A stretch of 64,000 nt of DNA, taken from NCBI RefSeq assembly GCF_900111765.1, contig NZ_FOIB01000012.1, positions 62,001-126,000 of the forward strand, written 5' to 3'. Below the pieces are notes generated by a model that was given only the letters and a program-made list of their open reading frames with translations, was not told the origin of the DNA and searched no databases. Source of the stretch: Myxococcus fulvus. GTDB taxonomy: Bacteria > Myxococcota > Myxococcia > Myxococcales > Myxococcaceae. The position numbers were made by a program, and so were the translations under genes. Shown one piece after another: positions 49,978-64,000 of the stretch; positions within the stretch are counted from its first letter, which is position 1, and the number at the start of each line of letters is the position of its first letter.

Positions 49978-51261
49978 CTACTCGAACACGGAGAACTCCG
50001 AGAGCGCGGAGATGGGAAGCGTCCACGAGCCTCCTTCCGTGAACACCCGCAGGCGCACGAAGCGCACCGGCACCTCCCCCGTCAGCGACACCTCGATGAA
50101 GCGCGCCGGACGCTTCACGTCCAACGGCCCATCCCCATAGGGGCTGTCCTCCGCCGTGTGGTCGAGCGCCGTGGAGAAGCGAGGGTCTCGTATCTCGACG
50201 TCGTCGTAGTTCACGTACGGCGCGCTCCCCAGCGAAGCCCAGCTGCCTCCATCCAGGCTGCCCTCCACCTGGAACAGGAGCTTGGGCGGACCGCCCTGAG
50301 ACAGCTCCACCTCCCGGATGACGGCGTGCCGCGGGCGGATGGGCGCGTCCCACTCGAGCACCACCTGGTCCACGCCGGAGTCCACCGCCCCCTGCGTGGT
50401 GCGCGCCTTGCGCAAGAAACCATCCGTGTACGGACACGGCTCGCCCACGGGAGCAGGCGTGCACGAGACCCCTCGGCTCACGGGGTGCAACGTGCCCACG
50501 GGCACGGGGACACGGGGGCCTCGCCACTCCACGCGGAACGACACCGTGCTCTCATTGGACGCCAGCGGACGGAAGATCCACGTGCCCAGGCTCACCGCGC
50601 GCACCTGCGCCTCCACCCCGGCGAAGTCCTCCAGTTGATAGGGATTGGGACGCCAGGGCGCCGCCGCGTCATGGACCTCCCAGAGCCGCCCGCCCGGGCC
50701 ATGCAATTGGACCACGGGGTAGGGCTCCCACGGCTCGAGTGTCACCGGGTCCGGCGTCTGCCCCGTATCCAACTGCAGCAACCGCCCCGACGGCGGCAGC
50801 GGCGGCACCGGCGGCGGCGCGTCGAATGACAGCGCGAGCCCCTCCGCGTCCCGCCCCACCGTCAGGTTCGGCGCCCACGGGCGCAGGGGAGGAATCTCCA
50901 CGTCGTCCTCGAAGACGAAGGACGTGTAGACGCCATGCCCCTCCTCGAGCGGCGCGGCCAGCCGGAAGCGGTACTGCAGCCGCTCGTACTCGCGCTCCTC
51001 CAGGGCGTCCCCGTGGAGCACCTCCAGCGTGACATTCCCCGCGCCCTCGCTGCGAGCCTCCGTGTAGGGCGTGAAGCCCACGTTCTCGGGATGCTCGTAG
51101 CTCGGCTGGCGCGTGCGCTCCAACGTCACCGCGACGTCGGGACGCGGCGAGCCATCCAGGTGTTGCAGCAAGCCGTAGACGAAGACGGGGTCCTCGGGCT
51201 TGCGGTCGCAGCCCGTGACGAGCAGCGCGACGACAGGCAGGCAACGAAGCAGTCGTGGCAT
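49978..51261 (-). CDS. Lipoprotein partner of the TonB-dependent receptor
   Basis: 427 residues. The signal MPRLLRCLPVVALLVTGC ends in the lipobox VTGC. An Ig-like regulatory domain (FVYGLLQHLDGSPRPDVAVT) and, in the last 120 residues, a discoidin-like sandwich (DSGVDQVVLEWDAPIRPRHA, PARFIEVSLTGEVPVRFVRL) are visible. The start codon overlaps the receptor's stop by a few bases on the same strand, so it is a coupled second gene of that operon. It may be the surface component that hands substrate to the receptor; substrate unknown. Confidence 0.8.
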   Translation of the reverse strand: MPRLLRCLPVVALLVTGCDRKPEDPVFVYGLLQHLDGSPRPDVAVTLERTRQPSYEHPENVGFTPYTEARSEGAGNVTLEVLHGDALEEREYERLQYRFRLAAPLEEGHGVYTSFVFEDDVEIPPLRPWAPNLTVGRDAEGLALSFDAPPPVPPLPPSGRLLQLDTGQTPDPVTLEPWEPYPVVQLHGPGGRLWEVHDAAAPWRPNPYQLEDFAGVEAQVRAVSLGTWIFRPLASNESTVSFRVEWRGPRVPVPVGTLHPVSRGVSCTPAPVGEPCPYTDGFLRKARTTQGAVDSGVDQVVLEWDAPIRPRHAVIREVELSQGGPPKLLFQVEGSLDGGSWASLGSAPYVNYDDVEIRDPRFSTALDHTAEDSPYGDGPLDVKRPARFIEVSLTGEVPVRFVRLRVFTEGGSWTLPISALSEFSVFE

Positions 51262-51262
51262 G

Positions 51263-54022
51263 TCAGTACGTCCCCTTCGCGCCGAGCAGCGGCAGGATGA
51301 TGGGAAAGCGCGTGGGCTTGCGTTCGGGGCGCAGGGCCTCGTCGAAGCCGTAGTCGTATGCGAACACCTCCTGCCGCGCGGACACGTTGAGGATGTCCAG
51401 GTACGCATCGAGCGTGAAGTCCTCCATCGCCCAGGACTTCGCCACGCGCAGGTCCACGCGGAAGAACGCGTCCAGGCGCTCGGCCTTGTCGCGGTCCTGC
51501 CGCACCCAGTTCTGCGTCCCGTCCGCGCGCGTCACCAGGCGCTGCGTCAGCGTGGTGATTTCGCCGGACTCGGGGCGGCCGGTGTTGAAGTGCACCACCG
51601 TGCCCACCGTCCAGTTGTTGCCGAACTTGTAGCTCAGCGCCGCGTTGAACACGTGCGCCTGCTCGAAGGCGAAGGGCAGCGTGCCCTCCACCGTCTCCAC
51701 CACCCGGTCATCATCCCCGTACCGGTCGAAGCGCACGCGCCGCTTGCTCTGCAGGAAGCTGTAGGAGACCCAGCCGAACCAGTCCCGCCCCAAGGGGTGA
51801 CGCGCCATCAGGTCCAGGCCGTACGCGTAGCCGCTGGCGGACGGGTCCGGCGTGTCGAGCCCGCGGCGACGGCGGTTCTCCACCACCTGCTGCAGGTCCA
51901 GCTCCACCGTGCGGGTGAGCGGGTTGTAGAAGACGTCGCCGCTCAGCTCCAGGCCCTCCATCGCCTTCCACTCGGCGCCCACGTCGAACTGCAGGCCCTC
52001 CTGGAGCCCGTGGCGCAGGCTCGACGTGTCCACCGCGGGCAGGTGCACCAGCACCGTGGGCGTCTGATGGAAGACGCCCGCGCCGCCCTTGAGCACCAGC
52101 GCGTCCGTGAGCTGGTGCCGCACGGTGAGCCTCGGCTCCGCCACCGTGTGGTTGATGCCGGGGGACAGGTGGTAGTTGTCCACGCGCACGCCGGGCTGCA
52201 CGAGCCACTGGGGCGCCGGCAGCCACGTCGCGGAGAGATACGCGCCGGAGAACATCGCCAGCGAGGACGGACTCTTGAGCGGGTCCGTCGTCTCGCCGGG
52301 CCGGCTGCCGGGAGGAATGCCGGTGCCCCGGATGTCCGTGGCCGCGCGCCGGTGCTCGATGTCACCCCCGACGGCGACCTCCAGCGTGTCGCTCATCCGC
52401 CGCTTCCAGCCCGCGCGCGCCGCGAAGGTGAGCTGGCTCAGCGCGTACTCGCCCACGTCCTGGTAGTCGATGGCGCCGCTCGCCGCGCGGAAGGACTCCT
52501 GGCCGGTGAAGCCCAGCGCGTCCGTGCCGAAGGTGAGGCCCACCTCCGCGTCTCCTCCCGCGAGCGGGTGCGTGCCGCGCAGGTCCACGCGGTGGAAGCG
52601 CGAGACGATGCGCCCGCCCGACATGCCCACCCAGTCGAGCGACGGCGAGGAGCCCACGTCGTCCGAGCTGCCCAGCGCGAACAGCCGCAGCCGCCCCTGG
52701 CCCACCTTCTGCTCGACGCGCGCCTGATAGTCCCAGAAGTCGGCGTGGAGCTTCTCCGTCTCCGCCGAGCTGAGCAGCTTGGAGCCGAGCGTTATCAACA
52801 GCGCCGAATAGCTGATGCGCCCCGCGACGCTGACGGAGGTGCCGGTGCTCTCGAAGGGGTACTCGATGAAGCCGCCGGCGTTGATGGGGTCCACCGAGGC
52901 GGTGACGTGCAGCCGGTCCTCGCGCGGGCGGCTCAGCCGTCCATCCACCGCGCCGCCCAGCAGCCGTCCGTACTGCACCGGCGGCGTGCCCGGGAAGAAG
53001 TCCACGGTGTCGATGAAGTCCGGGTGGAGCACCGCCGGCCCGAGCATCAGGTGGTACAGCATGGGGATGCGCACGCCGTCGAGGAAGAAGCCCGTGGCCG
53101 CGGGCTGGCTGCCGCGCACCACCGGGTAGCTGATGCCCGAGGCGAGGCTGCCCACGCCGGGCATCAACATCACCACGCGGAACGGGTCTCCCAGCGTGCC
53201 GGGCACCTCGCGCAGCTCCTGCTCGTGCAGCGTGATTCGCGTCACCTCCGTGCGCGGGCGCTCGTCGCGCACCACCGTCTCGTACGGATTCACCCGGCCG
53301 GGCTGCAGCCGGTAGATGACCTGGAGCGCCTGTCCCTCCGACAGAGTCTCCTCGAACGTGGCCGGTTGATGCCCCGGCGCGCGCACCTCCACGCGGTGGG
53401 CGCCGGGCGGCAGCGCCAGCGTGAAGCGCCCGTCCGCGTCCACGGTGCCCGAGGGCTCGGCGGCGCCGTCGACGAAGAGCGTGGCGTCCGCGAGGGGACG
53501 GCGCGTGCCTCGGGCCCGCACCTCCCCGGAGAGGCTCGCGGTGGAGCGGGGCACGGGTGCGGGCGGCTCGAAGCGATAGACGAAGGGCAGCCGCACCGCC
53601 ACCGGCGCGCCGGTGAGCACCGCGGGCGTGAAGCGCAGCCCCGACGCGGCCCGCAGCGCGGCCTCCGTGAGCCGGGGCTCCTGGGGCGCGGCGAGGACCT
53701 TCACCTCGGCCACCGCGCCCTCCACGTCCACCAGCAGCTCCAGCGTCACCTCTCCCGGGGTGCCCTCGAGCCCCTCGGGCCACGCGGCGGGAGAGGGCGT
53801 CACGAGCGTGGGCGGCTGGAGCCGGGCCTCGCGGCCATCCTGGGTGACACCCAGCCGCTCGGCGTCGTCGGCGGAGAGGACCGTGCCGCCGTCGCTGGCC
53901 TGGAGCTGGACCTCGATGGCGCGCGCGTCCGACGCGGGCGTGGGGACGCCCTGGGCGTGCGCGAGGACGGACAGCGTGGTGAGGACGAGCAGCGGGAAGA
54001 AGACACCGCGTCTGGAACGCAT
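51263..54022 (-). CDS. TonB-dependent outer-membrane receptor with TonB-like and regulatory domains
   Basis: 919 residues. After the signal peptide (FFPLLVLTTLSVLAHAQG) comes a TonB C-terminal-like domain (about 70-150: GEVTLELLVDVEGAVAEVKV, LTEAALRAASGLRFTPAVLT), then a carboxypeptidase-regulatory-like unit (about 160-235: SLSGEVRARGTRRPLADATL). The plug (about 270-400: LREVPGTLGDPFRVVMLMPG) and a 22-strand-type barrel ending in phenylalanine-rich strands follow. The TonB domain at the N terminus of a receptor is unusual. AAGGGGG precedes ATG 54022. Operon with the lipoprotein gene. Confidence 0.88.
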   Translation of the reverse strand: MRSRRGVFFPLLVLTTLSVLAHAQGVPTPASDARAIEVQLQASDGGTVLSADDAERLGVTQDGREARLQPPTLVTPSPAAWPEGLEGTPGEVTLELLVDVEGAVAEVKVLAAPQEPRLTEAALRAASGLRFTPAVLTGAPVAVRLPFVYRFEPPAPVPRSTASLSGEVRARGTRRPLADATLFVDGAAEPSGTVDADGRFTLALPPGAHRVEVRAPGHQPATFEETLSEGQALQVIYRLQPGRVNPYETVVRDERPRTEVTRITLHEQELREVPGTLGDPFRVVMLMPGVGSLASGISYPVVRGSQPAATGFFLDGVRIPMLYHLMLGPAVLHPDFIDTVDFFPGTPPVQYGRLLGGAVDGRLSRPREDRLHVTASVDPINAGGFIEYPFESTGTSVSVAGRISYSALLITLGSKLLSSAETEKLHADFWDYQARVEQKVGQGRLRLFALGSSDDVGSSPSLDWVGMSGGRIVSRFHRVDLRGTHPLAGGDAEVGLTFGTDALGFTGQESFRAASGAIDYQDVGEYALSQLTFAARAGWKRRMSDTLEVAVGGDIEHRRAATDIRGTGIPPGSRPGETTDPLKSPSSLAMFSGAYLSATWLPAPQWLVQPGVRVDNYHLSPGINHTVAEPRLTVRHQLTDALVLKGGAGVFHQTPTVLVHLPAVDTSSLRHGLQEGLQFDVGAEWKAMEGLELSGDVFYNPLTRTVELDLQQVVENRRRRGLDTPDPSASGYAYGLDLMARHPLGRDWFGWVSYSFLQSKRRVRFDRYGDDDRVVETVEGTLPFAFEQAHVFNAALSYKFGNNWTVGTVVHFNTGRPESGEITTLTQRLVTRADGTQNWVRQDRDKAERLDAFFRVDLRVAKSWAMEDFTLDAYLDILNVSARQEVFAYDYGFDEALRPERKPTRFPIILPLLGAKGTY

Positions 54023-54358
54023 GAGGCCCCCTTCAACACCCGATGACCTCGGAACTGTCACTCCGGCGAGTCCTCGGGTGGGCGCAGCCTCGCCCCGTCC
54101 CTCCCACGCGTCTAATGGTTTGTTCGATTACGCGGGAAGTCATGCATCACGCGTACAGTGTGCTCCTCACCGCGAGTCCTGGTCGTCGGGTACGAGTCCG
54201 GCGTCGAACCGAGGACGGCCAGGGCGCACGTTCGTGCGTCCGCGTGTGTGGCAACTCACGGAGGAAGGGCGCGGGCGTGGGGTCCAGGTGGAGGGCCCGG
54301 GAGGGCACCATTACCGTTGAGTCCACGCGGGGCTTCTCGTGGGGAAGGAGTCGGGGCG
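54023..54358. other. Divergent intergenic region with inverted repeats
   Basis: 336 bases between the receptor and GRAS genes. Two structures stand out. CCTGGTCGTC (54178-54187) pairs with GACGGCCAGG (54214-54223) with one G-T. CGCACG-TT-CGTGCG (54225-54238) is a perfect palindrome 121 bases before the GRAS start. An AT-richer patch at about 54111-54130 may hold promoters. No gene seen. Confidence 0.6.
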
Positions 54359-55468
54359 ATGCGCGCGCAGAAGGAGGAGCTGCTCTTCCGGGCGATGGAG
54401 CAGGGCCTGGCGGGACGGCCCGACGAGGCCACGGCGTCACTGGGGGCGTTGGAGTCGATGCTGGACGTGGACGCGGTGCCGGAGGATTTGGGCTACCAGC
54501 TCTTCGCCACCGCCGTGCGGCATCGCCTGGCGGGCGCCGGTGCGGGGAGCCGCAATCCCTATCTGCACCCCGACGCGAGCGAGCGGCAGATTGACTTGTT
54601 CCGCTCGCTGATGGCCCACATGCCGCTGGCGTCCACGGCCGACGCGCTGGCGAACGCGGTGCTGGAGGCGCTGCTCGGCGGACAGCAAGAGGCCACGCTG
54701 GTGGACGTGGGCATCGGCCAGGGGCGACAGGCCGTGCGGCTGTTGCAATCCCTGTCACGACGCGGCGCCGCGCCCGGGCAGCTGACGCTGGTGGGCGTGG
54801 ACCCGAGCGGGGCGAGCCTCGCGCAGGCGAAAGCCGCGACGGAGCGCGTGGCGCGCGAGGTGGACGCGAGCGTGCGCTTCATCGGCGTGGAGTCCCCGGT
54901 GGAGGCGATGAGCGGGGCGGAGTGGTCCATGCTGCGCGCGCTGCCGGGCCCCCGGGTGGTGAACGCGGCGTTCGCCCTGCACCACGTGGCGGAGGCGCCG
55001 GACAGCCTGGGCACGGCCCGGGACGCGGTGCTGCGGCGGCTGCGCGCGGTGGAGCCCGTGGCGCTGGTGATGTGCGAGCCGAACACGGACCACTTCCAGG
55101 CGGCGCCCCTGGAGCGCTTCGGCCACGCGTGGCGGCACTTCACGCACGTCTTCCAGTTGCTCGACTCCCTGGGCGTGCCGGGCGAGGAGCGCGCCGCCAT
55201 CAAGCGCTTCTTCGGGCGCGAGGTGGAGGACGTGGTGGGCACGGTGGACGAGTCGGCCCGCTGCGAGCGCCACGAGACGGCGCGCATGTGGAAAGCGCGG
55301 CTGTCGCGCGCGGGCTTCGAGCCCCTGGAGCTGCTCGAGCACCTGCGCCCCCACGGCGTGCACCCGGCGCTGACGCTGGAGCGCGAGCCGGGCGTGGTGG
55401 GCCTGCGCTGGAGGGACGAGGTGCTGGTGGCGGTGCTGGCCGCGCGGCCCGCGCCCGCCCACGGTTGA
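54359..55468 (+). CDS. Bacterial GRAS-domain protein (SAM-methyltransferase fold)
   Basis: 369 residues. The order of motifs matches the bacterial GRAS family, relatives of plant gibberellin-response regulators: the SAM-pocket loop LVDVGIGQGRQAVRLLQSL (116-124 core), VVNAAFALHHV (about 200-210), CEPNTDHF (240-246), a histidine/phenylalanine-rich helix (RFGHAWRHFTHVFQLLDS), FFGREVEDVVG (274-284) and RCERHETARMWKARL followed by AGFEP. It is probably a small-molecule methyltransferase or SAM-binding regulator; substrate unknown. AAGGAG precedes ATG 54359. It is followed 31 bases later by a PncC-like gene. Confidence 0.85.
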   Translation: MRAQKEELLFRAMEQGLAGRPDEATASLGALESMLDVDAVPEDLGYQLFATAVRHRLAGAGAGSRNPYLHPDASERQIDLFRSLMAHMPLASTADALANAVLEALLGGQQEATLVDVGIGQGRQAVRLLQSLSRRGAAPGQLTLVGVDPSGASLAQAKAATERVAREVDASVRFIGVESPVEAMSGAEWSMLRALPGPRVVNAAFALHHVAEAPDSLGTARDAVLRRLRAVEPVALVMCEPNTDHFQAAPLERFGHAWRHFTHVFQLLDSLGVPGEERAAIKRFFGREVEDVVGTVDESARCERHETARMWKARLSRAGFEPLELLEHLRPHGVHPALTLEREPGVVGLRWRDEVLVAVLAARPAPAHG

Positions 55469-55499: not shown

Positions 55500-56021
55500 G
55501 TGACGCCGGGACACGACGGACAGGACGACCCACGCCAAGAGACGTCGCTGGAGGCGCGCGTGCTGGAGCGCTGCCGGAGCACGGGGGTGCGGCTGGTGCT
55601 GGTGGAGGCGTGCACCGGCGGGCTCCTGTGCGGGCGGCTGACGGAGGTGCCCGGGGCCTCGGCGGTGGTGGAGCGCGGCTTCGTGCCGTACTCCTACGAG
55701 TCCAAGGTCGAACAGCTCGGCGTCCCGCTCGAGCTGCTCCAGGCGCATGGCTCGGTGAGCGCGGAGGCGGCGGAGGCCCTGGCGCGCGGGGCGTTGGAGC
55801 GCTCGAGCGCGAACTGGGCCATCGCGGAGACGGGCATCGCGGGCCCTGGCGGCGGCACGCCACAAAAGCCCGTGGGCCTGGCCTTCATCGCGGTGATGCG
55901 GCGGGGCGGAGCGGTGACGGTGGAGCGCCATGTCTTCGCCGGGGTCCGGGCCCAGGTGCGTGACGCCGTGGCCAGGCGCGCCTTCGAGCTGTTGCTCGAG
56001 CAGCTGAGCGTCGAATCCTGA
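55500..56021 (+). CDS. PncC/CinA C-terminal-type nicotinamide-nucleotide amidase
   Basis: A 173-residue stand-alone CinA C-terminal domain. It converts NMN to nicotinate mononucleotide plus ammonia. The core is LVLVEACTGGLLCGRLTEVPG, with the active-site serine position occupied by Cys (EACTGG instead of EACTGGL/SxTGG), and ETGIAGPGGGTPQKPVGLAF. The start is uncertain: GTG 55500 after AGGATGG is used. It and pncB in this window both feed NAD salvage. It follows the GRAS gene co-directionally. Confidence 0.85.
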   Translation: MTPGHDGQDDPRQETSLEARVLERCRSTGVRLVLVEACTGGLLCGRLTEVPGASAVVERGFVPYSYESKVEQLGVPLELLQAHGSVSAEAAEALARGALERSSANWAIAETGIAGPGGGTPQKPVGLAFIAVMRRGGAVTVERHVFAGVRAQVRDAVARRAFELLLEQLSVES

Positions 56022-56123
56022 ACCGGACATCCCCCCCGCACTCCCGGGTGTCTGGGCTCTCCACCAGCGGGCTCCTACGCTGTGGGGGCGCGCGACGCGC
56101 GTGCTGGTGGCGAAGGAGCCCGG

Positions 56124-56522
56124 GTGTTCCGAATCGACGTCGACAATGCGCACGCCATCGTGGGCTTCGTCCTGGAGGGCTACATCCGGGTGCCGGAGAT
56201 GGAGGCCTTCGTGACGGAGCTGGAGCGGGCCACCGACTCGCTCGCCGGCCAGGACATCAAGATCCTGGCCGACCTGCGCGCCTTCCGCCCCGCCTCGCCC
56301 GAGGCCGCCAACATGATTCGCCGCGTGCAGGAGTACGGCCTGCGCTCGGGCGTGGTGCGCGTGGCGGAGCTGGTGGAGAGCGAAATCGTCGCGCTCCAGC
56401 TCAACCGCGTGGCCCAGAACAGCCGCACGGACCGCATCCTGCGCCGCTTCTGGGAGGAGTCTCCCGCGCGCCTCTGGCTCATCCAGGGTGACGCGGCCGA
56501 GCCGCCCCAGCCGCGCCCGTGA
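56124..56522 (+). CDS. SpoIIAA-like (STAS-fold) protein
   Basis: 132 residues, no signal peptide. A first strand FRIDVDNAHAIVGFVLEGYI, a helix, and a second unit GQDIKILADLRAFRPASPEA are typical of SpoIIAA-like/STAS domains, which bind lipids or act as anti-anti-sigma-like switches. No conserved phosphorylatable serine is obvious, so regulatory phosphorylation is unlikely. GTG 56124 is preceded by AAGGAG. Function unknown. Confidence 0.72.
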   Translation: MFRIDVDNAHAIVGFVLEGYIRVPEMEAFVTELERATDSLAGQDIKILADLRAFRPASPEAANMIRRVQEYGLRSGVVRVAELVESEIVALQLNRVAQNSRTDRILRRFWEESPARLWLIQGDAAEPPQPRP

Positions 56523-56712: not shown

Positions 56713-56796
56713 GAAACATGAATAATCGCTTTTGCGTTTGAAAACGTGATTCCAGGTGTGTCACGAATAAATGGCCTTTTACCGGAGGTCTTGCAT

Positions 56797-59034
56797 TTGG
56801 CTCATCGAGTCTTGAAGACGATTGGCGTGGCCTGCTTGGGTGTTGCGCTCACCGCGTGTGGCACCACGGAGTCCGCGCCGGACGAGGCGAAGGCGCCCGA
56901 GGTGAAGGCGGGAGCGGACATCCAGCAGTCGCTCAAGAAGCTGCCGAGCGCGGGCGTGGCCGGCGCGCACACGGACGGCGTGCCCGACACGCTGGTGGGT
57001 GAGCTGGGCAAGGTGGAGCGCACGCTGTCGGCGCTGGGCGTGGGCCAGGCGGCCTTCGCGGCGGCCCCGGCGCTGACGGACATCGCCCCGGTGTTCCGCC
57101 TGCGCGCGGATGATTTGTTCCTGCAGCGCGCGCGCACGGACAACCAGGGCAACCAGCACCTGCGCTATCGCCAGACGAAGAACGGCCTGGAGGTGGTGGG
57201 CGGTGAGCTGATGCTGCACGTGCGCCCCGACGGCAACGTGTACGCGGCCAACAGCTCCGCCCGTGACGGCGTGGACCTGCCCGCGACGCCCCGCGTGGAC
57301 GCCTCCGCGGCGGCGCGCGCGGCGGCCCGTGGCACCGCCGGCACCGGCATCGCCTCCGAGGGCGAGCCCCGGCTGGTCTACGTGCGTGACGACGCGGGCA
57401 CGCTGTTCCTGGCCTGGCACGTGCGCGTGACGGGCACCCAGCCCTCCGGCATCCCCCTGGTGGACAACGTCTATGTCGACGCGCTCGGCCAGACGGGCGT
57501 CGTGGCGCGCCACCCGCTCATCCACACCGCCCGCAACCGCGCGGTGTACACGGCCAACAACGGCACCACGCTGCCGGGCACCCTGCGCCGGAGCGAGCTG
57601 GGCGCGGTCACCAACGACGCGCACGTGGACCAGAACCACACGCAGCTGGGCTACACGTACGACTGCTACCAGACGCTGTTCGGCCGCGACTCGTTCGACA
57701 ACGCGGGCGCGGAGCTGCGCAGCACCGTTCACTACAGCAGCGGCTACGTGAACGCCTTCTGGAACGGCAGCCAGATGGTGTACGGCGACGGCGACGGCGT
57801 GAACTCCATCGAGCTGGGCAAGGACCCGGACGTCACGGTGCACGAGCTGACGCACGCGGTGACGGAGCGCGAGTCCAACCTCATCTACTCCGGCCAGTCC
57901 GGCGGTCTGAACGAGGCGCTGTCGGACACCTTCGCCGCCATCTGCCAGAGCTGGGCGTCCGGCACCTGGAGCACCACGCCCGCCATCTGGATGATTGGCG
58001 AGCAGGTGTGGACGCCGAACACGCAGAACGACGCCCTTCGCTACATGGATGACCCGAAGAAGGACGGCGTCTCGCTGGACCACCTCAACGACTACACGTC
58101 CAGCACCGACGTGCACTACAGCTCGGGCATCCCCAACCTGGCCTTCGCGCTGCTCGCCAAGGGTGGCACGCACCCGCGCGGCCGCACCACCATCAACGTG
58201 CCGGCCATCGGCGTCGAGACGGCGGCGCGCATCTGGTACAAGGCCAACACGGACATCTTCACGGAGGGCACCACGTTCCTCCAGGCGAAGACGTGGACCA
58301 TCCAGGCCGCCGCGGACCTCAACTACAGCCAGGCCATCCAGGACGCGGTGAAGGCGGCCTGGGAGGCGGTGGGTGTCAACGGCGTGTGGACGCCGCCGGT
58401 CTCCGTCCCGCTGACCAACGGCACGCCCGTGACGGGCATCTCCGGCAGCCTGGGCAACGAGAAGTACTACTCGCTGGTGGTCCCGGCCGGGACGACCAAG
58501 GTGGTGTTCACCACCACGGGCGGCGGCTCGGGTGACCTGGACCTGTACGTGGGGCGCGGCACGCAGCCGACCACGTCCAGCTACCTGTGCAGCTCCGCGG
58601 GCAGCAGCAGCACGGAGACGTGCACCATCAACAATCCGACGGCGGGCACCTACCACGTCCTGCTCTACGCGTACTCGGCCTACTCCAACGTGACGCTGAC
58701 GGGCACGGCGAGCGCCACCGTGAGCAACGTGCTGCAGAACAACGTGCCGGTGACGGGCCTGTCCGCCGCCACGAGCGCCAGCGTGAACTACACGATGGAC
58801 GTGCCGGCCAACACCCGCGTGACGTTCGCCACCAGCGGCGGCACGGGTGACGCGGACCTGTACGTCCGCTTCAACTCGGCCCCCGGCACGGGCTCCGGCA
58901 CCTACGACTGCCGCCCGTACCTGGGTGGCAACGCGGAGACCTGCCAGCTGACGAACACCACGGCCGGCAAGTACTACGTGATGGTGCGCGCCTACTCGGC
59001 CTTCACGGGCGTGACGCTGCGCGGCTCCTACTAG
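56797..59034 (+). CDS. M4-family (thermolysin-like) metalloprotease lipoprotein with PPC domains
   Basis: About 745 residues. The signal HRVLKTIGVACLGVALTACG ends in the lipobox LTAC. A FTP/PepSY-type propeptide (about 95-260) precedes the catalytic domain. Zinc ligands are HELTH (349-353) and Glu373 in GGLNEALSD; the transition-state histidine is His440 in STDVHYSSGIPN. Two PPC beta-sandwiches follow (about 540-645 and 650-745). TTG 56797 is chosen because CCGGAGG ends 8 bases before it; the in-frame GTG at 56746 has no such site. A 15-bp terminator follows. Likely an extracellular or surface protease for protein feeding. Confidence 0.92.
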   Translation: MAHRVLKTIGVACLGVALTACGTTESAPDEAKAPEVKAGADIQQSLKKLPSAGVAGAHTDGVPDTLVGELGKVERTLSALGVGQAAFAAAPALTDIAPVFRLRADDLFLQRARTDNQGNQHLRYRQTKNGLEVVGGELMLHVRPDGNVYAANSSARDGVDLPATPRVDASAAARAAARGTAGTGIASEGEPRLVYVRDDAGTLFLAWHVRVTGTQPSGIPLVDNVYVDALGQTGVVARHPLIHTARNRAVYTANNGTTLPGTLRRSELGAVTNDAHVDQNHTQLGYTYDCYQTLFGRDSFDNAGAELRSTVHYSSGYVNAFWNGSQMVYGDGDGVNSIELGKDPDVTVHELTHAVTERESNLIYSGQSGGLNEALSDTFAAICQSWASGTWSTTPAIWMIGEQVWTPNTQNDALRYMDDPKKDGVSLDHLNDYTSSTDVHYSSGIPNLAFALLAKGGTHPRGRTTINVPAIGVETAARIWYKANTDIFTEGTTFLQAKTWTIQAAADLNYSQAIQDAVKAAWEAVGVNGVWTPPVSVPLTNGTPVTGISGSLGNEKYYSLVVPAGTTKVVFTTTGGGSGDLDLYVGRGTQPTTSSYLCSSAGSSSTETCTINNPTAGTYHVLLYAYSAYSNVTLTGTASATVSNVLQNNVPVTGLSAATSASVNYTMDVPANTRVTFATSGGTGDADLYVRFNSAPGTGSGTYDCRPYLGGNAETCQLTNTTAGKYYVMVRAYSAFTGVTLRGSY

Positions 59035-59135: not shown

Positions 59136-59537
59136 ATGGCACGGGACAGCGCGGCGAAGCCGGGTGGCACCTCATTGGGCCGGTACGGCTGCGGCGTGCT
59201 GCTGCTGGTGTTCGTGCTCGTGCCGGGGCTGGTGCTGTTCTTCTCCTGGCTGAGCGCGAGCGTCCTGACTCCGCGCAGGGAGCGGCAGGTGCAGGCGCGC
59301 ATCGCGGGGTTCTGCGGCGAGGTGAAGGCGGGCGAGCTGCCGGAGGACGCGCTGGAGCGCTCGCGCTCGCTGGGCTACCCCGTCCGGCTGGAGGGCTCCG
59401 TCGCGAAGCGGCTGCGCATCCTCCGCTTCGACGCGCCGGTGAGCCAGATGCTGGGCTGCGAGCTGCACACGGACGACGCGGGCCGGGTCAGCTCCACGAA
59501 GCCCTATGTCATCTCGATGGAGTACGAGGACTTCTGA
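59136..59537 (+). CDS. Small single-span membrane protein, unknown function
   Basis: 133 residues. One strong hydrophobic segment (GCGVLLLVFVLVPGLVLFFSW, residues about 19-39) follows a polar start. The remaining 90 residues form a small polar domain (RILRFDAPVSQMLGCELHTD ... KPYVISMEYEDF). No family is recognised. AAAGGAG precedes ATG 59136. Its last 34 bases overlap the converging giant kinase gene. Confidence 0.7.
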   Translation: MARDSAAKPGGTSLGRYGCGVLLLVFVLVPGLVLFFSWLSASVLTPRRERQVQARIAGFCGEVKAGELPEDALERSRSLGYPVRLEGSVAKRLRILRFDAPVSQMLGCELHTDDAGRVSSTKPYVISMEYEDF

Positions 59538-62500
59538 GGCTCGGGCCCGGTCGGCAGCTCGACGGTGAAGGTGCTGCCCTCGCCAGGGGTGCTCTCCACG
59601 TGGATGGAGCCCCCGAGCGCGGTGAGGATTTCGCGCACCAGGTGCAGCCCCAGGCCCAGGCCGCCGTAGGCGCGCACGGAGACGGCGCGCTCGAAGCGCT
59701 CGAAGATGTCGGCGAGCCGGTCCTCTGCGATGCCGATGCCCCGGTCCGTCACGCTCACGCGCACCCGCCCGTCGTCCTCCCAGGCGCGCAGGGTGATGGG
59801 CTTGCCCGGGCCGAACTTGAGGGCGTTGGACAGCAGGTGCACCAGCACCTGCCCCAGCCGCGCGCCGTCCCAGTTCCCCCACAGCGGACCGTCCAGGTGG
59901 AGCTCCAGCGCGCAGCCCGCCCGCTCCAGCGGCTCGGCGAGCCTGCGGGCCGCGTGGTGGATGAGGTCCGCCAGGTCCACGCGCGTAAGGTGCAGGTCCA
60001 TCCGCCCGGCCTGGAGGCGGGAGATGTCCAGCATCTCCTCCACCAGCGTGGCCAGCTTCAGCGTCTGGCCGTCCAGCGTGCGCAGCGCGCGCACGGCGTG
60101 GGGCGGCAGCCCGGGCGGCGTGTGGCGCAGGAGCGTCTGCACCATGAGGCGCAGCGAGGTGAGCGGCGTGTTCAGCTCGTGGGAGGCCACGCTGAGGAAC
60201 TCGTCGCGCAGGCGCACGGCGTCCTGGGCCTCGCGGTACAGCCGGGCGTTGTCCAGACAGACGGCCACGCGGCGCGACAGCTCCTGGGCGAGCCCCAGGT
60301 CCGCGTCGGTGTAGCGCCTGCCGGGCGCGCCGGAGACGAAGGTGGCCACGCCCAGCGTCTTGCCTCCGGCGATGAGCGGCACGTGCATGGCGGCGCGTGA
60401 GCCGATGTCGCGCAGCAGGTCGATGTACTCCTGGCCGTGGCCGTGCTCGCGCAGGTTGAAGTCGGTGACGTCCGCGCGCAGGAAGGGCTGGCCGGTGCGC
60501 AGCGCGTGGATGAGGGCGGGCGGGGACGTCCAGTCCACCGGGTACTTCTCCAGCATCTGCTTCAGCCGCGCCTCCTTGCGCGCGTCCACGTGCGTCGCCG
60601 ACAGCACCCTCAGGTGCTCGCCGCGCTCGACGACGGTGACGATGCACCAGTCCGCCAGGAAGGGCACCACGCGCCGCATGGCGTTGCCCAGCATCACCTC
60701 CACGTCCAGCGACTCGGCCAAGGCCAGCCCCGTGTCCGCCAGGAAGCGCACGGCCCGCTCCGCGCGGCGGCGCTCCTGCACCTCCACGTGGAGCTGCTCG
60801 AACAGGCGGCTGTTCTCCAGCGAGATGGCGATCTGCGACGACAGCGTGCGCAGCACCCCCACGCGCTCCGGGGTGAAGGCGCGCGTGGCCAGGTCATTCT
60901 CCAGGTAGAGCACGCCCACCGTGTTGCCGTGGCGCTGGATGGGCACGACGAGCGCGGACTTCACCGCGCGGCGGACCACGTAGGCGTCCCCCACGAAGCG
61001 GCCCTGGTGCGCGGCGTCGGCCAGCACCAGCGTCTCACCGGTGCGGAAGGCGTGCTCCACCAACGTCACCGGCACCTGGTGGCTCGACTCCAGCGGGGTG
61101 CGCTCCAGGCTGACGGGCTCGGAGCTGGCCCCAACGGCGCAGACCTGGAGGCTTGCGCCCTCGTCCAGGACCAGCGCCCCACGCGTGGCCCCCGCCGCCT
61201 CGAAGCACACCGCCATCAGCTTCTCGAGCAGCCGGTCCAGCACCACCTCGCCCACCAGCGTCTCGGAGGCCTTGAGCAGGGTGAGCAGGTCCAGCGAGGC
61301 CCCCGGCGGCGTGGGCGCCGCCGTGGTGGCGCCGGGCTCCACCCAGGGCCGGTCCACCCGCGTCGCCAGCTCCGGGAACTCCTCCTCCAGCTGCGTCACC
61401 TTCGCCTGCGCGCCCCAGCGCACGTAGCAGTCCAGCGCCGCGCGCAGGTACAGCGGCACCAGGCGGCGGTGGCCCTGCTGCTGGTGGAAGCGCCCCGCCA
61501 GCTCGTTGGCCAGGGCCTCGTCCTGGAGGAAGCCCTCGGTGTGCGCGCCGTCGATGGCGCTGTCGTACGACCGCATCGCCTCCAGCGCCCGGTCCTCCAG
61601 CCGCGCCACCTCCGCCGCCACCAGCTGGTGCTTGTGGCGGAAGTTCTCCGGACACGTCCGGGCCCACACCTCCAGCCGCCGCTGGTTGGACTCCACGTGG
61701 GACAGCAGGGACGCCTTCTCCAGGGGGGCCCGGGAGGCGCGCGCCAGGAGCGTCAGCGAGGTGAGCACGTTGAAGTCCACGTTGCGGAAGAAGCCCTGCG
61801 TGTAGTGCACGTAGGGCAGGGCCTCGCGCGACATGCGCAGCGCCTCGTCGATGTCGCCCATCACGTAGGCGACGAAGAGCTTCATCATCGCGAGCAGGTA
61901 GAGGTTGGTCTGCTCCGCCCGGTCCGACGCGAGGTACGCGCTCTCGTCGAAGTCGTCGTCGTCCAGCCGCGCGGGCGTGCGCGTGCGGCCCTGGAGCGCG
62001 CGGATGGCCTGACGGTAGAGGATGGACACGTCCACCATGCCCTGCACGTTGGCGCGCCGGGAGTAGGAGAGGGCGGTGTCGATGGAGCCGAGGATGCGCA
62101 CCAGCTCGGTGCCCATCGCCAGCTCCGTGGAGACGACGGTGGTGAGCGCGTAGCTGGTGAACTGCAGGTCCCCGCTGGCCAGCCCCGTCGTCACCGCCCG
62201 GCGCAGCAGGGACAGGCTGGTGCGCAGGGGCGCGCGCCAGTGATTGACGTTGAGGGTGAGGCTGATGAGCGCCCGGCACTCCTGCCTGGCGTCGCCCAGC
62301 TTGCGCGCGAGCGCCACGCCCAGGTGTCCGTAGGCCTGCGCCTCCTCCACCTCGCCCCGGCTCGCCAGCAGCATCCCCTGCACGGCGTGGACGGCGGGGG
62401 CCCAGCGCGAGTTGCCGTGCTCCAGCGTGAGCGCCAGCGCCAGCGTGTTGAGCCAGGCGAACAGGTCCGGGTCCACGAAGAAGGCGGGCGTGACGAGCTC

Positions 62501-64000
62501 GGACAACAGCTGCACGCAGGCCAGGTGCCCGCTGTCCGTCATCATCGGCGCGTCCAGCAGCTCCTCCACCCGGCGCCCGTCCAGGTGCTGGCGCACGCGC
62601 GCCTGTCCCTCGGCGAGCGCCTCCGTGTAGCCGTGCTCGGGCAGCTCCACGCCGAACAGCCGCAGCCCCTCGCGGCCCGCGGCGAGCGCCTCCGGGTATT
62701 TCCCCGTCATGAGGTTCGCGAGCACCTGGAGGACGTACAGGTCCGCCTTCTGGGGCGCGGACGCGGCGTGTCCGTGCGCGGTGCACAAGAGCTCCTCCGC
62801 CAGCTTCCCGTCGCCGGAGAGGTACGCGCACTCCGCGGCCTCCCTGTGCACCTGGAAGAGCCGCGCCTGTCGTCGAAGCCCCCCGTCCGCGGGCAGCAGC
62901 GACAAACCGCGGGTGAAGTACACCAGCGCCGCGCCGAAGGCGGAGGCCCCCTTGGCCTTGAAGCCCGCGCGGAAGAACAGCTCCGCCAGCTGCTCGCGCT
63001 CCTCGCTGTCGCCCAGCTGGCCGAGGCCCCGGTACAGGTGGTCCACCACCGCGAAGAGCCGCTCCTCCAGCGCCTCGCCCCTCGCGTCGTGCCACAGCTT
63101 GCGCCCCACGGCCAGGTGCAGCGCCTGGCGCTGCTCCTCGGTGAGCAGCGAGTACGCCGCCTGCCTGACGCGGTCGTGCGCGAAGCGGTAGGTGGCCGCG
63201 CGCCGCGCGCCGTCCGTCGTCGTCGGCGAGCGCGCGGGCTCGCTCTCGGGGACGAGCAGCCCTTCGCGCAGGAGGCTCCACAGCGCGGAGGCCGCGTCCT
63301 GCTCGTTCTCGTCGACGAGCGAGGACAGGAGGCCCAGCTCCACCTGGTCTCCCAGGCACGCGGCCACCTCCAGCACGTACTGGGTGCGCTCGGGCAGGCG
63401 GCGGATGGCGGCGAGCAGCAGCTCCACCACGTTCTCCGTCACCTCCACGCGGGACAGCCGCTCCAGCTCCCAGGTCCACGTGCCGCGCTCCCAGTCGAAG
63501 CGCAGGAGCCCGGACGCGTGCAGCAGGCGCAACAGCCGCGTGAGGAAGAGCGGGTTGCCCGCCGTCTTGCTCGCGAGCAGCCGGGCCAGGGGCGCCACCC
63601 GCGCGGGCTCCAGCTGGAAGGTGTCCGCGCACAGCGCGGTGATGGCGCCCACGTCCAGCGGCGCCAGCTCGAAGTCCTGGACCGGCAGCGTGTCCTGCTG
63701 GGCGAGCACGTCGAGCAGGCGCGACAGCGGGTGTCCGGGGCCCACCTCCTGCGGTCGCCACGCGCCGATGAAGAGGACGTGTCGCGAGCCCGGGTCCGTG
63801 CACAGGCTCTCCAAGAGCTGGAGCGAGCCGGGGTCCGCCCACTGCAGGTCATCCAGGAACAGCAGCAGCGCGTGGCGGGGCGTGGCCAGCGACTGCACGA
63901 AGGACTGGAAGAGCAGGTGGAAGCGCGCGGCGGCCTCCACCGGCCCCAGCGCGGGCGGTACCGGCTGCGGCCCGAGCAGCACCTCCAGCGCGGGCACCAC
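59504..64000 (-). CDS. Giant AAA-ATPase/GAF/sensor histidine kinase, C-terminal part
   Basis: The frame runs off the right edge, so only the last 1498 residues are seen. The visible part starts inside an AAA-type STAND ATPase, with Walker B LLLFLDDLQWADPGS (about 44-58). A TPR-like helical array covers about 270-920. Two GAF domains (about 950-1080 and 1105-1260, separated by a coiled coil) follow. The kinase core has SVASHELNTPLTSL with the phospho-His at about 1274, and N- and G-box motifs (LSNALKFGPG, DRGIGIAE, GLGLGLHL). Such myxobacterial proteins usually carry an N-terminal Ser/Thr kinase too; it is not in the window. Confidence 0.92.
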   Translation of the reverse strand: MVPALEVLLGPQPVPPALGPVEAAARFHLLFQSFVQSLATPRHALLLFLDDLQWADPGSLQLLESLCTDPGSRHVLFIGAWRPQEVGPGHPLSRLLDVLAQQDTLPVQDFELAPLDVGAITALCADTFQLEPARVAPLARLLASKTAGNPLFLTRLLRLLHASGLLRFDWERGTWTWELERLSRVEVTENVVELLLAAIRRLPERTQYVLEVAACLGDQVELGLLSSLVDENEQDAASALWSLLREGLLVPESEPARSPTTTDGARRAATYRFAHDRVRQAAYSLLTEEQRQALHLAVGRKLWHDARGEALEERLFAVVDHLYRGLGQLGDSEEREQLAELFFRAGFKAKGASAFGAALVYFTRGLSLLPADGGLRRQARLFQVHREAAECAYLSGDGKLAEELLCTAHGHAASAPQKADLYVLQVLANLMTGKYPEALAAGREGLRLFGVELPEHGYTEALAEGQARVRQHLDGRRVEELLDAPMMTDSGHLACVQLLSELVTPAFFVDPDLFAWLNTLALALTLEHGNSRWAPAVHAVQGMLLASRGEVEEAQAYGHLGVALARKLGDARQECRALISLTLNVNHWRAPLRTSLSLLRRAVTTGLASGDLQFTSYALTTVVSTELAMGTELVRILGSIDTALSYSRRANVQGMVDVSILYRQAIRALQGRTRTPARLDDDDFDESAYLASDRAEQTNLYLLAMMKLFVAYVMGDIDEALRMSREALPYVHYTQGFFRNVDFNVLTSLTLLARASRAPLEKASLLSHVESNQRRLEVWARTCPENFRHKHQLVAAEVARLEDRALEAMRSYDSAIDGAHTEGFLQDEALANELAGRFHQQQGHRRLVPLYLRAALDCYVRWGAQAKVTQLEEEFPELATRVDRPWVEPGATTAAPTPPGASLDLLTLLKASETLVGEVVLDRLLEKLMAVCFEAAGATRGALVLDEGASLQVCAVGASSEPVSLERTPLESSHQVPVTLVEHAFRTGETLVLADAAHQGRFVGDAYVVRRAVKSALVVPIQRHGNTVGVLYLENDLATRAFTPERVGVLRTLSSQIAISLENSRLFEQLHVEVQERRRAERAVRFLADTGLALAESLDVEVMLGNAMRRVVPFLADWCIVTVVERGEHLRVLSATHVDARKEARLKQMLEKYPVDWTSPPALIHALRTGQPFLRADVTDFNLREHGHGQEYIDLLRDIGSRAAMHVPLIAGGKTLGVATFVSGAPGRRYTDADLGLAQELSRRVAVCLDNARLYREAQDAVRLRDEFLSVASHELNTPLTSLRLMVQTLLRHTPPGLPPHAVRALRTLDGQTLKLATLVEEMLDISRLQAGRMDLHLTRVDLADLIHHAARRLAEPLERAGCALELHLDGPLWGNWDGARLGQVLVHLLSNALKFGPGKPITLRAWEDDGRVRVSVTDRGIGIAEDRLADIFERFERAVSVRAYGGLGLGLHLVREILTALGGSIHVESTPGEGSTFTVELPTGPEPQKSSYSIEMT

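Follow-up and report, generated by a model that had tools for sequence, protein, structure and literature searches.

The window, that is, the whole stretch of 64,000 nucleotides of DNA from the soil bacterium Myxococcus fulvus that was analysed, contains an exact open reading frame at 54359..55468 (+), which runs from ATG to TGA and encodes a 369-aa GRAS-domain protein, predicted to be a SAM-dependent methyltransferase. The Shine-Dalgarno-like sequence AAGGAG was read at 54345..54350 (+), 8 nt 5' of the ATG, which makes a longer, GTG-started frame less likely. No other GRAS gene is present in the genome. Downstream on the same strand, 55500..56021 (+, start alternatively 55482) encodes a short PncC/CinA-like protein with a PF02464 domain (165.8 bits), predicted to be without ordinary NMN deamidase activity, and 56082..56522 (+) encodes a 146-aa SpoIIAA/STAS-like protein as the third gene of a putative unit. 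The third protein matches PF11964 below its curated cut-off (E 0.0016; 19.6 bits against 25) and can be regarded at best as a distant SpoIIAA-like/STAS relative; its structure model was too poor for use (pLDDT 40.5). No promoter-like site was found at the locus, and the one terminator-like site found there equals what shuffled sequences give.

On the other side of the GRAS gene, 51263-54061 (-) encodes a TonB-dependent receptor. Residues 100-163 of this receptor match a TonB C-terminal domain, and a carboxypeptidase-regulatory domain precedes the plug and barrel. The next frame, 49978-51408 (-), encodes 476 aa, has no Pfam match at E 0.001 and adjoins the receptor gene in many relatives. Beyond the third gene, 56746-59034 (+) encodes an M4 (thermolysin-type) metalloprotease that has a propeptide motif and, at its C-terminal end, two PPC domains. 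The frame 59504-64000 (-), which runs past the window end, encodes a large sensor kinase whose domains are AAA_16, two GAF, HisKA and HATPase.

Identity and distribution of the GRAS protein

The assignment of this protein to the GRAS family, proposed in a preliminary description of the DNA, was borne out by both profile and single-sequence searches. In the Pfam profile search, GRAS (PF03514) matched with 129.9 bits (E 1.5e-37, cut-off 27) over residues 21-357 of 369 and profile positions 17-368 of 374. When the single sequence was searched with phmmer against solved structures, rice SCL7 (5hyz) ranked top at E 2.2e-18, followed by DELLA1 (1.7e-17), RGA (about 1e-13) and then SCL3, SHORT-ROOT and SCARECROW. 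The motifs on which the proposal had been built, namely LVDVGIGQGRQ, VVNAAFALHHV, CEPNTDHF, FFGREVEDVVG and RCERHETARMWKARL, are all found in the translation in the claimed order.

The protein could instead be read as an ordinary class I methyltransferase for which GRAS is a chance best match, since general models do give weak scores to its SAM core. With a loose limit, the runner-up in Pfam was Methyltransf_12 (20.2 bits, E 0.001, cut-off 30), followed by Methyltransf_25 (17.8 bits, cut-off 27) and six further families, each below its own cut-off; the EgtD family model PF10017 reached E 0.2, and NCBIfam gave sub-threshold methyltransferase matches only, including a 2-ketoarginine methyltransferase model at E 0.0011. 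An ordinary class I family scoring equal to GRAS had been named in advance as the outcome that would speak against the assignment; in the search, GRAS came out about 110 bits ahead with nearly complete coverage of its profile, and the single-sequence matches were likewise to plant GRAS proteins. With 129.9 bits for GRAS against 20.2 bits for the best general model, an ordinary methyltransferase was rejected, its probability being close to nil. The product of the frame 54359-55468 is a genuine GRAS protein of the bacterial kind and a further member of an already known bacterial GRAS family.

The description of such proteins as rare holds within the phylum, in which GRAS was found in 47 of 195 genomes and 7 of 90 genera, at 53 places in total. 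Forty-five of these 47 genomes belong to the family of the window genome, and none of 14 control genomes gave a GRAS match. A contig scan also detected GRAS loci in Myxococcus qinghaiensis and M. eversor, whose orthologues share 72 percent identity with the window protein. Among plasmid records, GRAS occurs on two Skermanella plasmids only (L033:8719-9837 and L034:8719-9837), where the neighbours are genes for a small hypothetical, a LysR-type and a PAS-domain protein, with an allantoate amidohydrolase gene near and no PncC beside. A phage or virus origin of the gene was considered and rejected, because no relative was found in 50,697 phage records and none of the 18 viral-contig stretches fitting the peptide pattern encodes one.

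For alignment and tree building, 56 proteins were used, comprising 42 of the window kind (type A), six from six congeners (type B), the G062 protein, two distant proteins from other families of the phylum, two Skermanella proteins and three plant segments. The 53 bacterial rows thus represent 51 of the 53 GRAS places in the phylum plus Skermanella; G086 and G090 were left out here and in the neighbour counts, and L005, a duplicate of L038, was dropped from the counts. In the tree, type B (support 100/100), the plant proteins (100/96) and Skermanella (100/100) form separate groups, and type A is set apart only by a weakly supported branch (50/77); the root is arbitrary and the long branches meet, which makes the deeper order unsafe and the bacterial source lineage of plant GRAS unreadable from it. 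Nei-Gojobori dN/dS values were 0.14-0.45 for 12 closer pairs (the window against L044 and 11 comparisons between relatives, one of them within type B and one within Skermanella) and 0.33-0.94 for 10 more distant window pairs, a method that is rough at such GC content and that probably underestimates the synonymous rate in the distant pairs.

The surroundings of the other GRAS types were also recorded. Type-B GRAS genes (L064-L069) adjoin a gene for a protein of about 600 aa, which in L068 is a DUF885 protein (E 8.3e-78), and the GRAS gene of G062 (L047:9426-10481) has a gene for a cytochrome P450 (PF00067, E 2e-26) as its neighbour.

SAM-binding signature and predicted activity

Motif I of the window protein, residues 113-124 (TLVDVGIGQGRQ; 54695..54730, +), is a DxGxGxG SAM-binding loop. 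All 53 bacterial rows of the alignment keep D116, G118 and G120, and 51 keep G122, which is replaced by Ala in two type-A rows. An acidic residue follows strand 2, Asp148 in the window protein (54800..54802, +) and Asp or Glu in all 53 bacterial rows. By comparison, the three plant rows have Lys, Asn or Val at position 120 and Gly or Pro at position 148. We take D116, G118, G120 and the acidic residue 148 together to be the SAM-binding signature of class I methyltransferases, with Asp148 presumably contacting the SAM ribose by analogy with those enzymes; the window protein carries both the loop and the acidic residue.

Further conserved residues lie in the later part of the domain. The segment L207-H208-H209 (54977..54985, +) follows strand 4, with H208 in 53/53 and H209 in 51/53 bacterial rows, two of the six type-B rows differing at the latter. 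The proposed active-site motif E240-P-N-T-D-H245 (55076..55093, +) has its Glu in 53/53 bacterial and 3/3 plant rows. The segment from R301-C-E-R-H-E306 to W311 (55259..55291, +) matches the plant RVERHE...W segment, with R304 in 50/53 bacterial and 3/3 plant rows and W311 in all 53 bacterial and all three plant rows. Type-B rows vary at R301, E303 and R304, which counts against a uniform active site.

The AlphaFold model of the GRAS protein, built from only three close sequences, is poor (pLDDT 51.1, pTM 0.40). GRAS structures rank first in comparisons with this low-confidence model (Z 12.2-13.6) but superpose with an rmsd of 14.5-17, and its core matches class I methyltransferases, among them EgtD with Z 11.3 and an rmsd of 4.0 over 167 residues.

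The GRAS protein is most likely an active SAM-dependent small-molecule methyltransferase. DVGIGQG and Asp148 would bind SAM within a Rossmann fold, and the methyl group would pass to a small molecule seated in the later part of the domain, where H208, H209, E240, R304, E306 and W311 are candidate substrate-holding residues. Bacterial GRAS members were reportedly predicted to be active by Zhang, Iyer and Aravind in 2012. Papers citing that work state that it placed bacterial GRAS proteins in the Rossmann methyltransferases (PMC4279901, PMC5834537) and describe plant members as mostly without activity and possibly binding a similar substrate (PMC5834537); the SAM residues kept in the bacterial rows and lost in the plant rows fit this account.

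A non-catalytic role has also to be weighed, in which the protein would be a ligand- or protein-binding regulator resembling plant GRAS, its Rossmann cleft sensing SAM or another small molecule. Plant relatives work as regulators (PMC9942845) and do so without an intact SAM signature, which makes such a role possible; E240, R253, F265 and W311 are common to 3/3 plant rows, and the SpoIIAA-like neighbour, itself a sub-threshold match, would suit a regulatory unit. However, G120 and the acidic residue 148, lost in the plant rows, are kept in 53/53 bacterial rows, and the 369-aa protein matched no DNA-binding family in Pfam. We consider a purely regulatory protein unlikely and favour the methyltransferase reading.

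Conservation of the gene neighbourhood

A short PncC/CinA gene lies directly downstream of GRAS on the same strand in 42 of 42 type-A loci, an arrangement shared by loci whose GRAS proteins are 41-100 percent identical to that of the window. The gap between the two genes was estimated at -27 to 44 nt in 37 loci and 96-376 nt in the other five, taking 55500 as the PncC start and ignoring the unaligned last GRAS residues. The third gene follows PncC in 38 of the 42 loci, the remaining four ending at contig ends before it. Farther out, a TonB receptor gene lies divergently upstream of GRAS within 2.3 kb in 27 of the 42, a count that includes short loci possibly ending before the receptor gene. 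No PncC was found beside any of the nine GRAS genes of other kinds that gave a tblastn match (six type B, G062 and two Skermanella), nor at L071, outside these nine and on a 6.5-kb contig piece; L070 gave no GRAS match at the tblastn limit used. The conserved order and strand together with the short gaps suggest that the GRAS, PncC-like and SpoIIAA-like proteins are co-expressed, probably from one transcript, and a functional link among the three may be inferred.

Ten congeners among those listed are without GRAS, so the gene is dispensable. In nine of them, which have genomes of about 9 Mb, are not independent of one another and may reflect one loss event, PncC is kept and a close copy of the third gene is missing, its relative there reaching only 35-36 percent. 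PncC stands downstream of the syntenic gene w45457 in eight of the nine, the ninth (G133) being cut at a contig start, and those eight stretches gave no tblastn match to the TonB receptor, the receptor's neighbour or GRAS. In the tenth congener (G138), PncC and the third gene are kept with another predicted ORF in the GRAS place, and in G062 both genes (L121) are present without GRAS there, its GRAS gene being located elsewhere. GRAS is thus an accessory gene at its place. G078 and G082 also appear GRAS-less, with PncC cut at contig ends, and were left out of the loss count. On the far side of PncC, the GRAS-less congener loci L129, L134 and L135 carry genes whose products, to judge by sequence, resemble accessory proteins of type VI secretion of the PAAR-like and DUF2169 kinds.

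This presence and absence of GRAS among close congeners offers ready-made comparisons, and the conserved gene partner in Myxococcus makes the question of the GRAS substrate experimentally approachable. In the literature searched, which covered few subscription papers, we found no experimental work on a GRAS protein from bacteria, no paper on PncC in Myxococcus and no description of a GRAS-PncC-SpoIIAA-like neighbourhood, which may already be in print; the accessible text of PMC10699852 likewise does not mention bacterial GRAS.

The PncC-like neighbour and comparison with known systems

S31 and K63 are the catalytic pair of Agrobacterium CinA (PMC5384747). When the window copy was aligned to this protein (2a9s), the Lys was found to be kept and the place of Ser31 to be occupied by Ala (codon GCG, 55608..55610, +). 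Of the 42 GRAS-adjacent copies, counting that of the window, 40 have Ala at this place, and only those of G127 and G132 have Ser. Other residues of the pocket are retained, K63, Y58 and S48 in 42/42 copies and T105 and R145 in all copies in which the alignment covers them (39/39 and 35/35; three and seven copies lack cover, respectively). The adjacent position 32 is Cys in 36 copies, Ser in five and Gly in one. Four full-length CinA proteins that were aligned keep the Ser, as does the full-length CinA of the window genome itself. Loss of the serine as a mark of the GRAS unit was rejected, because it is also lost in 13 of 13 short PncC loci without an adjoining GRAS gene (12 Ala, 1 Asp).

In Agrobacterium CinA, the S31A variant had no detectable activity and a nearly unchanged melting temperature (PMC5384747), and a PncC S29A variant was inactive yet bound NMN in the micromolar range (PMC8231969). 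With the serine required in two tested enzymes but lost in 40/42 copies, the PncC-like neighbour of GRAS is, judging from the alignment, unlikely to be an ordinary NMN deamidase. The earlier suggestion that an amidase next to GRAS hints at a nucleotide- or NAD-related molecule therefore stands in part: the PncC-like neighbour is real and conserved in 42/42 type-A loci, but the serine needed for NMN deamidation is lost in 40 of them.

The protein might nevertheless be an active amidase that uses another nucleophile, which could be residue 32 (Cys or Ser) or a water molecule activated by lysine. A lysine-activated water mechanism was proposed by the authors of the Thermus CinA study (PMC4246079), which leaves inactivity of the PncC-like protein probable rather than certain; position 32 is Cys in 36/42 and Ser in 5/42 copies, and Ser31 itself is retained in 2/42. 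In Agrobacterium CinA, however, C32A remained active and S31A was dead, so that the serine and not position 32 is needed there (PMC5384747). On balance, such an amidase is somewhat improbable.

How far the PncC-like protein informs on the GRAS substrate is a separate matter. The two genes may be adjacent by inheritance only, the GRAS substrate being unrelated to pyridine nucleotides, which is compatible with the methyltransferase reading. Eight of the nine GRAS-less congeners of about 9 Mb have PncC in the corresponding position, the serine is lost in short copies without GRAS as well, and the type-B, G062 and plasmid GRAS genes are not beside PncC. Against this, the order and strand held in 42/42 loci and the gaps of -27 to 44 nt in 37/42 suggest co-expression. 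We regard adjacency by inheritance alone as an evenly balanced prospect.

In the favoured reading, the PncC-fold partner, with its nucleotide pocket kept and its catalytic serine lost, would bind a pyridine nucleotide rather than cleave it. In a bolder scheme, the three proteins of the neighbourhood, GRAS, the PncC without its serine and the SpoIIAA-like one, might form one unit in which NMN or a related nucleotide is bound uncleaved by the PncC-like protein and presented to the GRAS methyltransferase, or in which the PncC-like protein controls that enzyme. We hold this full scheme to be very unlikely; if true, it would connect the bacterial relatives of these plant regulators with the chemistry or sensing of pyridine nucleotides.

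Compared with the PncC/CinA NMN deamidases (2a9s; PMC8231969), the neighbour thus shares the PF02464 domain and, where covered, K63, Y58, S48, T105 and R145, and differs in having Ala instead of the catalytic Ser31, as do most GRAS-adjacent copies. The histidine methyltransferase EgtD and other class I enzymes may share the Rossmann core with the GRAS protein, as the weak model indicates (Z 11.3), whereas the EgtD family model itself reaches only E 0.2. Plant GRAS regulators (DELLA, SCARECROW, SHORT-ROOT) are believed to go back to a bacterial gene that was acquired by an algal ancestor of land plants (PMC9942845, PMC12448838). Much of the domain aligns with rice SCL7 (5hyz), DELLA1 and RGA, and E240, R253, F265, W311 and most of RxERHE are common to both; in contrast, the three plant rows are without G120 and the acidic residue 148, both present in the window protein, which for its part is without a long N-terminal region before the domain. 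With the bacterial GRAS family described in 2012, the window protein shares the GRAS domain, membership of the Rossmann methyltransferase superfamily and an intact SAM signature. Its domain is no different from that family, to which the conserved PncC and SpoIIAA-like neighbours are an added observation.
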